From positions 1-64,000 of the forward strand of contig JAECRG010000001.1 in assembly GCA_015999875.1 (NCBI GenBank): 64,000 nucleotides of DNA. Direction: 5' to 3'. This stretch comes from Candidatus Saccharimonadota bacterium (lineage in GTDB: Bacteria; Patescibacteriota; Saccharimonadia; Saccharimonadales; Saccharimonadaceae). Under the pieces are notes generated by a model. That model saw nothing but the letters and a program-made list of their open reading frames with translations, was not told the origin of the DNA and did not search any database. Each line of letters begins with the position of its first letter. Within the stretch, counting starts at the first letter, position 1. Below are positions 43,554 through 48,200 of this stretch, piece by piece. The translations under genes were made by a program, and so were the position numbers.

Positions 43554-44411
43554 ATGTCATCAACACATGCTACACCGCACAAAAGAAAAGGCATCGTCGC
43601 TACCCTCCTGGCTCTGGCTGTCGTCTTGATCGCCGCCATGATGTCAACAGGCACGGCGGCTGCGAATCCTTCTTGGAATTCGTATCCCATCATCGGGACA
43701 CACGACATCCCCGGAAGCCAGGCTTCCTGCAGCAAGCCTCAGGGCTCGGGTCTTCCCACGACGGCAAACTGTGCCGTTTGGATGGTGAAGACCTTCACCC
43801 AGGAGACCTACGGCACTCGAGGCTTGTCGCTTCGAGAGGGCGCGCCTGCTGGTTCAACTCCGTTCTTCAGAGCGGTGCCAGCGTGGGCGTTTGGTGCTCA
43901 AGCATCAGTTAACCCTCAGAATGTGTGGGAGACTGCGTCCGGCTGCTACTGGAACGTTGATGCAGCTAACTACTGCAACATCACCAACACTGTCTACATC
44001 GGCACGAATCCCATGAGCAGCATCGAGACCAACGGCGGAGATCCGCGGTTCGAGCTTGCTCTGATTTTTGCTCATGAGACGGGCCATGCAGCTCAGGCTC
44101 AGCCGTTTTCGGGTGGGCGCTACACGCTTGGAAAGGGAGGCTTCCCCTCGAAGACAACTCCCGAAGATCAGCCCGACTGCTTCAGCGGTGCGTTCACCAA
44201 GTACGGCGTGGACAAGGGGTGGTTCGACGCGACTACCGCTCGCACGGAAGGTGGGCAGGTTTGGTATGTTCGCGGCGGCACCGAGTTGGGTGTTACTGCA
44301 CACAACCTCAACACCGAACGGCAACGGTACTTCGAGCTTGGATACGATGAGGGATTATCTGCATGCAACGCAATGTTCCTCGCGCGTCCTATCGCACCCT
44401 GGACCAGCTAG
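43554..44411 (+). CDS. Secreted neutral zinc metallopeptidase (YpfJ-like)
   Basis: 285 residues. Signal peptide about 1-37 (GIVATLLALAVVLIAAMMSTGTAAA). Zincin motif HETGH (174-178) in FELALIFAHETGHAAQ, and PDCFSGAF (207-214) corresponding to ADCFAGVW of the YpfJ family where an acidic residue is the third ligand. ERQRYFELGYDEGLSACN matches the family C-terminus. Exported, so may act on host or own surface proteins. Six or more cysteines in the mature part suggest disulfides. AGGAG before the ATG; GC-rich codons. Confidence 0.85.
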   Translation: MSSTHATPHKRKGIVATLLALAVVLIAAMMSTGTAAANPSWNSYPIIGTHDIPGSQASCSKPQGSGLPTTANCAVWMVKTFTQETYGTRGLSLREGAPAGSTPFFRAVPAWAFGAQASVNPQNVWETASGCYWNVDAANYCNITNTVYIGTNPMSSIETNGGDPRFELALIFAHETGHAAQAQPFSGGRYTLGKGGFPSKTTPEDQPDCFSGAFTKYGVDKGWFDATTARTEGGQVWYVRGGTELGVTAHNLNTERQRYFELGYDEGLSACNAMFLARPIAPWTS

Positions 44412-46293: not shown

Positions 46294-47244
46294 CTATTCG
46301 GTGAGCTGGTGTAGAGTCGCACGTGCTTCGTCGGTGGACGTGGTGTGCATGAGTTTGTCGCGAAGCTCTGCTGCACCTTCAAAATCGCGGACATATATCT
46401 TGAAGAATCGCTTGAGCGTCTCAAACGGCCGGCCGGTTTGATGGCTATATTCATCGTACAGATCAAGCTGACTCGACAGCAGGCTGAGTAACTCCGCTCG
46501 GCTGTGAGATGCAGGGGTTTTCTCGAATGCATAAGGATTCTGAAAAATACCACGACCTATCATGACGCCATCTACACCTGTTTCTGCTACCAACTCTTCT
46601 CCGTGCGCACGGTCTCGTATGTCACCATTGATTGTGAGGAGTGTATGTGGCGCGATTTCATCGCGTAGCTTCTTGATCTCGCTAATCAATTCGTAGTGAG
46701 CTGGTACCTTGCTCATCTCTTTTTTGGTACGCAGATGAATGGTGAGATTTACGATATCTTGAGAGAGGATGTGAGTGAGCCAGGCCTGCCATTCGTCGAC
46801 ACGACTGTAGCCGAGACGGGTCTTCACGCTCACGGGCAGTCCACTGGTTTTTGCAGCTGCGATGATTGCAGCTGCGTTTTCTGGATTGCAGATCATACCT
46901 GCTCCTCCGCCACTTTTGGTTGCAGATTTGTCCGGGCAGCCCATGTTTATATCGATTCCATCGTAGCCAAGCTCTGCGCAGTGCGCAGAGAGTTTCTCCA
47001 TGGCTTCGGGGTTACTTCCCCAGAGCTGAGCTACTATCGTGCGCTCGTCGTCTGTTTTGATGAGTCGTCCACCGATAGCTCGTTCACCTGCGGCTGCCCA
47101 GCCGGTGGCGTTGGTAAACTCGGTAAACCATACGTCTGGCGCTGAGGCTTGGGCCACTACGTGACGAAATACAACGTCAGTGACAGCCTCCATAGGGGCA
47201 AGTACATAGAATGGTTTTGGTAGATCCACCCAAAAGTTTCGCAT
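46294..47244 (-). CDS. dus: tRNA-dihydrouridine synthase
   Basis: 316 residues. FMN-binding TIM barrel: APMEAVTD near the N-terminus, INMGCPDKSATKSGGGAG with catalytic Cys103, KTRLGY, IHLRTKKE, NGDI and VMIGRGIFQNP. Reduces uridines in tRNA D-loops using NADPH. The start codon overlaps the stop of the 47244-47411 gene by one base (TAATG). It sits next to the odd tRNA operon. Confidence 0.96.
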   Translation of the reverse strand: MRNFWVDLPKPFYVLAPMEAVTDVVFRHVVAQASAPDVWFTEFTNATGWAAAGERAIGGRLIKTDDERTIVAQLWGSNPEAMEKLSAHCAELGYDGIDINMGCPDKSATKSGGGAGMICNPENAAAIIAAAKTSGLPVSVKTRLGYSRVDEWQAWLTHILSQDIVNLTIHLRTKKEMSKVPAHYELISEIKKLRDEIAPHTLLTINGDIRDRAHGEELVAETGVDGVMIGRGIFQNPYAFEKTPASHSRAELLSLLSSQLDLYDEYSHQTGRPFETLKRFFKIYVRDFEGAAELRDKLMHTTSTDEARATLHQLTE

Positions 47245-47411
47245 TAGCTCTGCTGGCGACGCTTTTCATTTATGTTTTGCATTGCTTCATTTTGCCTTGC
47301 GATGGTAAGAGCGCTAATCTGGCCTAGTCCGCGGACAGCTTCTTCGTTCGGAGAATCATCATCTTCCCGGAGTGTCTCGATATGATTAAATGATCGTTCA
47401 GTATTTGGCAT
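47244..47411 (-). CDS. Small protein translationally coupled to dus, 55 aa
   Basis: ATG 47411 with AAAGGA 8 nt upstream; product is charged and helical (NTERSFNHIETLREDDD at the start, RQNEAMQNINEKRRQQS at the end). The stop TAA shares its last base with the dus start. No family recognised. A coupling or partner role for Dus, or an RNA-binding peptide, is possible. Confidence 0.65.
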   Translation of the reverse strand: MPNTERSFNHIETLREDDDSPNEEAVRGLGQISALTIARQNEAMQNINEKRRQQS

Positions 47412-47503
47412 ACGCGTTCCTTTCAGCTAACAAAACTCACATTGGTATCGAATATGAGTATTGGTAGATGCAGACAGAAATAGCATCTAGTGGTGTTGGC
47501 AGA

Positions 47504-47540
47504 GTGCCCCCCGTCGTGATCATTTTATGACGAGGGGCAC
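47504..47540 (-). terminator. Terminator of the stable-RNA operon
   Basis: GTGCCCC-CGTC pairs with GACG-GGGGCAC (12 bp, one mismatch), 4 nt after the discriminator base of tRNA-like gene 1; loop rich in A/T. Confidence 0.75.
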
Positions 47541-47544
47541 TCAG

Positions 47545-47645
47545 TGACGATGACGGGGTTCGAACCCGCGACCTTTCTACGCGAATGTGTGCATGCTGCA
47601 GACATGTACGTATTCAGAATGCTCTACCAGCTGAGCTACATCGCC
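47545..47645 (-). tRNA. tRNA-like gene 1 with 35-nt anticodon loop (intron, insertion or pseudogene)
   Basis: Acceptor GGCGATG pairs with CATCGTC (one G-U), TA, D arm GCTC-AGCTGGTA-GAGC, T arm GCGGG-TTCGAAC-CCCGT, variable AGGTC and discriminator A; CCA is not encoded. The anticodon stem is TTCTG/TAGAA but encloses 35 nt instead of 7. The insert folds further (GAAT/ATTC, then GTACATG with CATGCAC, one mismatch) to a 7-base terminal loop TCTGCAG. Removing 28 nt would restore a normal loop, but the anticodon cannot be assigned (GCA or TGC if the terminal loop serves). Too short for a group I intron. Confidence 0.7.
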
Positions 47646-47648
47646 TTG

Positions 47649-47673
47649 TCGCGGTGGATTTATCCATCCGCGA
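47649..47673 (-). other. Hairpin between zinc-ribbon ORF and tRNA-like gene 1
   Basis: TCGCGG/CCGCGA plus TGGAT/ATCCA with a bulged A, directly 5' of tRNA-like gene 1. It may cap the 3' end of the mRNA after tRNA processing. Confidence 0.55.
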
Positions 47674-47681
47674 ACATGGTG

Positions 47682-47834
47682 CTACTGGGAGTGGCCACAT
47701 GAAGGACAGCGGTAACCGCTACGATTCATGCTTTCACTGATATAGAACTCCTGACCGCACCTGTTATTGTTGCAGGTGCGCTTGACGTTTGTGTTGCCGG
47801 ATTGTGACGCGGAACCCTTTGAAGTGAAAGCCAT
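47682..47834 (-). CDS. Zinc-ribbon microprotein, 50 aa, between two tRNA-like genes
   Basis: ATG 47834 with GAAAGAAAGG upstream (spacing 6). The N-terminal 20 residues are polar and probably disordered; then CNNNRCGQEFYISES and YRCPSCGHSQ give a Cys-x4-Cys ... Cys-x2-Cys zinc-ribbon ending at the C-terminus. Zinc ribbons of this size bind RNA, ribosomes or act as subunits of larger enzymes. It is in one transcription unit with the flanking tRNA-like genes (same strand, no terminator between). No family recognised. Confidence 0.72.
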   Translation of the reverse strand: MAFTSKGSASQSGNTNVKRTCNNNRCGQEFYISESMNRSGYRCPSCGHSQ

Positions 47835-47876
47835 GATGGGCCTTTCTTTCATTGAGTCACTGGTTGCGACTCGTCG

Positions 47877-47950
47877 AGAGCGTGACGGGAATCGAACCCG
47901 CGAGTCACCGGGATTTTACGCCGGTTGCTTGCCTCTCAGCTTACACGCTC
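47877..47950 (-). tRNA. tRNA-like gene 2 with 9-nt anticodon loop
   Basis: Acceptor GAGCGTG/CACGCTC pairs perfectly; D arm has only 3 bp (GCT/AGC) around GAGAGGCA; anticodon stem ACCGG/CCGGT is perfect but encloses nine bases CGTAAAATC (a 7-base GTAAAAT loop would need a C-C mismatch); T arm GCGGG-TTCGATT-CCCGT. Discriminator T, CCA not encoded. If U33 is the T, the anticodon reads AAA, which bacteria practically never use. So either a non-canonical tRNA, a tRNA mimic or a decaying gene. Confidence 0.68.
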
Positions 47951-47952
47951 GT

Positions 47953-48010
47953 GCAAGGCAAATGTCACCATATTTGCGCCGATCACTGTCGGCAAGTACA
48001 TTCGCCTTGC
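47953..48010 (-). ncRNA. Long hairpin leading into tRNA-like gene 2
   Basis: GCAAGGC-AATGT pairs with ACATT-GCCTTGC (13 bp, one mismatch), with an inner hairpin GCCGA/TCGGC. It ends 2 nt before the 5' end of tRNA-like gene 2, so RNase P cleavage would release it as a stable 58-nt RNA. Confidence 0.55.
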
Positions 48011-48171
48011 TGCCGAGTACACCCCAAGATCCACGCTTTTAGCGTTCGTCATCAAGTTGCACCCTAGATATGCTATTTCTGTCTGTAAAGTTGCGACAGC
48101 AATGCATGGCAAAAAATTTACGAATATCTACCTCATAAACTCATTGCCACACACACTTCTGCGCGAGTACT

Positions 48172-48200
48172 ATGATAGGGCATTTATTGCAACGTGTCAA
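48172..48200 (-). promoter_or_regulatory. Promoter of the stable-RNA operon
   Basis: Leftward TTGACA (48200-48195), 17-bp spacer, TATCAT (48177-48172). Start near 48165; it lies outside the inverted repeats, and the leader before the hairpin is about 150 nt with no ORF I can support. Confidence 0.75.

Follow-up and report, generated by a model that had tools for sequence, protein, structure and literature searches.

In the spacer between uvrD and dus, a Candidatus Saccharimonadota bacterium of the family Saccharimonadaceae carries a block (47,420–48,200 of the window, by which we mean the whole 64,000-nt stretch of DNA analyzed) that is best read as a new modular structured RNA. We give about an even chance to the reading that a single large and stable structured RNA, closed by a long-range helix, P1, is encoded here, with tRNA-like elements and a small ORF as its modules. 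The evidence comprises P1 and its covariation, ends that are kept around an interior that is replaced, extreme folding, and intact tRNA bodies whose anticodon arms are mostly non-decoding. An initial annotation, made from the letters of the window, had inferred a self-contained RNA–protein module of an unfamiliar type. As regards a structured RNA this view is supported: outside its tRNA-like parts the element has no match in Rfam, it keeps its position across the family and it covaries. The annotation would have been refuted by a decayed region with neither conservation nor covariation; the block proved to be both conserved and covarying, and this refutation clearly fails.

Organization of the block in the window

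The features of the block, all on the minus strand, are listed in Table 1. The initial annotation had recognized the promoter, two tRNA-like genes, the 58-nt hairpin just ahead of tRNA-like A and the zinc-ribbon ORF, and all of these were borne out. It had also drawn a single unit from promoter to terminator, of which the promoter stood; the corrected order is promoter, leader hairpin, boxA, P1 and terminator, the last in other genera only. The terminator proposed at 47504–47540 is a strong hairpin without a U run and hence not an intrinsic terminator, and the trailer hairpin of the window runs on into the message of a 55-aa ORF and dus, which follow downstream on the minus strand. The annotation did not include the P1 helix, which holds the whole block together.

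The same block is found in the same uvrD–dus spacer of congeners, in which a hairpin resembling the GAGTC/GACTC hairpin is also placed after tRNA-like A. With this recurrence and a fold z-score of −8.3 for the 746-nt window RNA, the minimum-free-energy (MFE) structure of which contains P1, the block is more than chance.

Two further ORFs of the window may be mentioned. The 55-aa ORF directly upstream of dus (47244–47411, minus strand) is hypervariable among congeners save for a short C-terminal helix-like motif, and positions 43554–44411 on the plus strand encode a predicted exported protein of 285 aa with an HETGH (HExxH) metalloprotease-like motif.

Table 1. Features of the uvrD–dus block, with positions in the window, in order of transcription
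Feature	Position	Strand	Evidence or remark
Sigma-70-type promoter, TTGACA-17-TATCAT	48172–48200	−	11 of 12 positions match; congeners have a promoter at the same place
Leader hairpin	48093–48164	−	MFE fold; leader alignable within the genus
boxA-like CGCAACTTTACA, degenerate in the window genome	48084–48095	−	Compared with rrn boxA of five relatives
P1 helix, 5′ strand CAGACAGAAATAGCAT	48070–48085	−	Covariation; present in MFE fold
58-nt hairpin module	47953–48010	−	3′ end lies 2 nt before tRNA-like A
tRNA-like A	47876–47950	−	Complete acceptor, D and T arms; 9-nt anticodon loop; CCA absent
Small GAGTC/GACTC hairpin	47854–47872	−	Between tRNA-like A and zinc-ribbon ORF
50-aa zinc-ribbon ORF, C-x4-C ... 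C-x2-C	47682–47834	−	Homologue at the same place in G002
Hairpin between zinc-ribbon ORF and tRNA-like B	47648–47675	−	Sequence and MFE fold
tRNA-like B	47545–47645	−	Anticodon arm about 30 nt longer; CCA absent
Strong hairpin, no terminator (U run absent)	47502–47542	−	Fold and terminator check
P1 helix, 3′ strand ATGCTATTTCTGTCTG	47471–47486	−	Long-range complementarity, covariation, MFE fold
Trailer hairpin	47424–47470	−	Site of the intrinsic terminator in other genera

A covarying helix encloses the element

P1, a long-range helix of 14–16 bp that encloses the whole block, was first found by an unbiased search for long-range complementarity, and the same helix, GACAGRRATAGTGC pairing with GCACTATYYCTGTC, is present in many genomes. 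Among 26 sequences, 96.7% of the cells are paired and both sides have changed in 12 of the 14 pairs, and the covariation score is 0.552, with shuffled sequences scoring 0.182 and slid ones no more than 0.161. In most of the family dus follows uvrD, and our set comprised 81 uvrD–dus spacers, with the uvrD end in reach in 69. A relaxed P1 finder matched 33 of the 81 spacers, as against 8% in shuffled sequence; those 28 with a common context were retained, which puts the recurrence of P1 at about 28 of 81. Many spacers have no detectable P1, tRNA-like element or ORF, so that no interior module is universal, a point against our main reading.

The 5′ strand of P1 is preceded by a leader hairpin and a boxA-like TTTRACA, and its 3′ strand is followed by an intrinsic terminator in most genera. 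The rrn leaders of five relatives (G001, G129, G032, G018 and G098) have the pattern [CA][ATG]TT[AG]ACA, and an exact match to this rrn-derived boxA pattern lies at the P1 edge in 14 of 28 elements, compared with 0.00015 per base genome-wide. The boxA of the window genome is degenerate (ACTTTACA), with no exact match to the pattern, which counts against our main reading; the sister species G002 has TGCTCTTTAACA, which we take to be the textbook boxA sequence. The element resembles an rRNA operon in the order of its parts, namely promoter, leader hairpin, boxA-like sequence and, in the place of the processing stem, P1, and where the boxA pattern is kept its core matches that of the rrn leaders in the same family, but it differs in containing no rRNA, in its hypervariable interior and in the terminator directly after P1. 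A long-range stem enclosing the RNA, an rrn-type feature, is present according to the P1 covariation, and an RNase III-like protein is present by motif.

Some elements depart from the common arrangement. In genus g25, P1 apparently has another sequence, CATGAAAGTT with AACTTTCATG (G100 and G123; shorter in G027), and the spacers of these three genomes (L174, L176 and L013, respectively) hold two or three tRNA-like elements, the last of which ends beside the 3′ strand of P1. A credible ORF was not found in the P1-type elements of this genus. The uvrD–dus spacer of genome G026 (L021) holds a tandem pair of P1-type elements; P1 is GACAGGAATAGTG in one and GACAGGTATGATTC in the other, and both have a separate ORF.

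The ends are kept and the interior is replaced

Twenty P1-closed elements have fold z-scores of −4.3 to −19.2 relative to dinucleotide shuffles, as compared with only −0.1 to −2.0 for seven control stretches of uvrD coding sequence. Within genus g1, to which the window genome (G000) belongs, the leader through the P1 5′ strand and the P1 3′ strand plus trailer can be aligned at about 75–92%, the former alignment being best among G001–G003, while the interior has only short stretches in common. The ends of the element are conserved, and its interior is replaced between species.

Two pairs of genomes allow noncoding and coding parts to be compared. Between the sisters G155 and G238, identity reaches 87% and 85% in the noncoding parts and 53% in the ORF, and the stem formed by GGCYCTGCCGTC and GACGGCAGRGCC shows a compensatory change from T-A to C-G; the RNA is therefore favored as the conserved object in that pair. 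In G121/G153, the best conserved stretch contains the ORF. These pairs point in opposite directions for an explanation that we consider unlikely, namely that the element is a super-stable mRNA of which the small protein is the product, with P1, hairpins and tRNA-like elements merely shielding the message from exonucleases. The near-perfect Shine–Dalgarno sequences ahead of small ORFs in many spacers and the occurrence of one ORF family in 10 genomes speak for such an mRNA as well; some P1-closed elements, as well as genus g25, lack a credible ORF, however, and the ORFs are unrelated from species to species.

Small ORFs in the spacer

The zinc-ribbon ORF of the window has four putative zinc-binding cysteines in two knuckles, and its homologue in G002, with 46% identity, retains the C-x4-C ... 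C-x2-C arrangement. Every match of this ORF to the zinc-ribbon families of Pfam fell below the cut-off, and the spacer ORFs gave nothing above cut-off against PHROGs, Pfam or NCBIfam. A Foldseek search with the structure model of the zinc-ribbon protein (pLDDT 70) returned weak matches only, mostly to archaeal ribosomal entries, and at E values of 0.3 or worse the predicted likeness to archaeal ribosomal zinc ribbons is a hint only.

The zinc-ribbon ORF is one among several unrelated small ORFs at this site, the kinds including zinc ribbons (G000, G002 and G134), Cys-rich proteins of the CxxCxGxG type and the helical ORF family I (MATKxQYxxAAK...RTxEQQxLV...VRNADFEA), the last found in 10 genomes with phmmer E values down to 1e-22. 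Neither the zinc ribbon nor ORF family I turned up elsewhere in the G000 genome. The initial annotation had suggested that the zinc-ribbon protein may bind the tRNA-like elements; it is not a fixed partner, as the same frame holds unrelated small ORFs, or no ORF, in other species.

The extended form of the Shine–Dalgarno sequence, AGGAGGTGAT, is present in the sense direction in 11 spacers and absent both in antisense and from the G000 genome. Situated ahead of tiny ORFs, it is a near-perfect complement of the 3′ end of 16S rRNA, and it might also hold ribosomes besides starting translation.

tRNA-like modules with mostly non-decoding anticodon arms

Both tRNA-like elements of the window have the tRNA fold of RF00005 and score above the gathering threshold of this Rfam model, with 50.7 bits for tRNA-like B (47545–47645, minus strand) and 37.4 bits for tRNA-like A (47877–47950, minus strand). 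A canonical anticodon arm has a 5-bp stem and a 7-nt loop containing U33; neither copy reads as such, and the 9-nt loop of tRNA-like A offers no usable anticodon. In 63.7 kb of spacer, ARAGORN detected 37 tRNA-like elements, spread over 27 spacers and all in the sense of dus, and an independent count with Rfam gave 36 in 28 spacers; about 2.4 would be expected in 63.7 kb at ordinary tRNA density. Where P1 was mapped, all eight ARAGORN tRNA-like elements lie inside it. None was found upstream of dus in order-level relatives outside the family or in the sampled genomes of g2 (a large genus), g10 and g12; a broad dus scan of GTDB contigs, mainly from Firmicutes and other phyla, was left out of the analysis. 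Chance or decay as the origin of the block was rejected on account of the P1 covariation, the fold z-scores and the counts and orientation of the tRNA-like elements.

Among 28 parsed tRNA-like elements, pairs are intact in the acceptor (196/196), D (109/109) and T arms (139/139), an intactness that is partly imposed by the search because ARAGORN and Rfam select intact arms. A canonical anticodon arm is present in 5 and CCA in 4 of the 28, as against 34 of 36 parsed whole-genome matches. In most copies the anticodon arm is closed or extended or has no U33; typical forms are a tetraloop on a 7-bp stem (TTCG in G003, GCAA in G116, CACA in G138 and TACC in G134), a loop of 5 nt on a 6-bp stem (G069 and G106), and an extension of roughly 30 to 70 nt (G000, G002, G100, G027 and G154). 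Non-decoding arms and loss of CCA are also what tRNA pseudogenes piling up neutrally in the spacer would show. This origin is barely credible: 37 copies in 63.7 kb, all in sense, contrast with 39 ordinary tRNAs in a 1.04-Mb genome, the other arms are intact and the copies sit inside P1 where mapped, the anticodon arms, instead of decaying, again form perfect hairpins whose loops are UUCG, GCAA or the like, and the fold z-scores of the whole element also speak against it.

With D and T arms intact, a hypervariable anticodon arm and dus adjoining, the tRNA-like elements could instead be decoys that titrate tRNA-binding enzymes, anticodon nucleases or the neighbor-encoded Dus and change in an arms race. 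We regard this as distinctly improbable, given that no tRNA-like element was detected in over half of the spacers, that dus lies beyond the terminator in most genera, and that decoys for anticodon nucleases would be expected to keep the anticodon loop.

Host tRNAs and the fate of the tRNA-like elements

In the whole genome of G000 (1.04 Mb), ARAGORN identified 39 ordinary tRNAs, all of which encode CCA and have U33 in a 7-nt loop; the two tRNA-like elements are the only other Rfam tRNA matches. The tally of these tRNAs and a search of the genome revealed no tRNA-Ile, tRNA-Ala-UGC or 16S rRNA, and because all three are missing, the rrn operon probably lies outside the assembly. The CCA-adding/poly(A) polymerase family (PF01743) was undetected in G000–G003 and in 38 of 41 genomes of the family and order, with controls matched in 10 of 14, and RNase Z (TIGR02651) was undetected in G000–G003. 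Since CCA is usually absent and both the CCA-adding enzyme and RNase Z went undetected, the tRNA-like elements, as judged from sequence, probably cannot be charged or matured as tRNAs. In view of the missing CCA, the undetected CCA enzyme and the closed loops, we rejected the reading that the block consists of functional or intron-bearing tRNAs.

RNase P recognizes acceptor and T-arm geometry, which the tRNA-like elements have, and in the window genome and G002 they flank the ORF. The initial annotation accordingly had them excised by RNase P and RNase Z, so that mRNA and hairpin RNAs would be freed. Excision by RNase Z is not supported, given that the enzyme was undetected in genus g1 and that CCA and a detectable CCA-adding enzyme are lacking; moreover, many elements have one tRNA-like element or none in the same frame, and we hold tRNA punctuation to be highly improbable. 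Our preferred reading, a single RNA closed by P1, has its own difficulty here, as RNase P cuts at both tRNA-like elements would part the two P1 strands. Some spacer tRNAs that look genuine also count against it: the second of G134 (398–468) and that of G201 (about 228–295) are of a CCA-bearing tRNA-Cys type and probably genuine. They may offer a view of how tRNAs enter the element.

Comparison with known RNAs

No family of Rfam 15 other than tRNA matches any of the spacers scanned. The covariance models of GOLLD, ROOL and OLE were thus unmatched in all of them. Like these RNAs, the element is a large, elaborately folded bacterial RNA, and GOLLD sometimes has tRNAs in its linker, while both GOLLD and ROOL occur near tRNA islands (PMC12286853). 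The element lies between chromosomal uvrD and dus, however, and not in phage, its tRNAs are mostly non-decoding and it contains interchangeable small ORFs; GOLLD is the nearest known kind, but frame, place and ORFs are different. tmRNA (RF00023) was rejected as well: a separate tmRNA is located at G000:C2:12492–12880, and the block matches tRNA only. The element shares with tmRNA the union of a tRNA-like and a coding part in one RNA, and differs in its full D arms, lack of CCA and ORFs with their own Shine–Dalgarno sequence. An insert in the anticodon arm (tRNA-like B; also G100, G002 and G027) recalls tRNA genes with introns at this site, yet the arms of the element are often closed by tetraloops, so that removal of an insert would yield no tRNA, and CCA is absent. 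A literature search, with most subscription journals outside its coverage, found no description of the element.

Proposed mechanism and significance

We infer the function of the RNA and the role of its tRNA modules as follows. The RNA would be made like a pre-rRNA, from a strong promoter and with boxA acting in antitermination, and P1 would serve as a closing stem or as a processing stem that a double-strand-specific RNase, for example RNase III, cuts. Modules would be exchanged in the interior. Those that are tRNA-like, as putative descendants of tRNAs, may now be rigid folding or elbow-recognition modules that protect and organize the RNA; they would be bound, possibly with RNase P cutting at their 5′ side, and would decode no codons. 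The small ORF, here the zinc ribbon, would be expressed from within the protected RNA as cargo or partner, and its product, a small protein, is probably associated with RNA or the ribosome.

More broadly, and with somewhat less than even confidence, we propose that the element represents a large bacterial RNA of a new class, in which tRNAs no longer able to decode act as structural domains, the frame of leader, boxA, P1 and terminator is kept, and domains and cargo or partner proteins are swapped by species, in short a fast-evolving ribonucleoprotein platform made by the rRNA pathway. If so, a class of large RNAs that has so far escaped description, and that shows strong covariation, would exist in one of the most reduced bacterial lineages, and it would offer a natural example of tRNAs converted to RNA domains with no part in translation. 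A fixed frame with swapped contents poses a testable question, that of the role of an RNA that keeps its ends while its inside is exchanged, and the apparent absence of the CCA-adding enzyme and RNase Z would provide a clean setting in which to tell real tRNAs from mimics.
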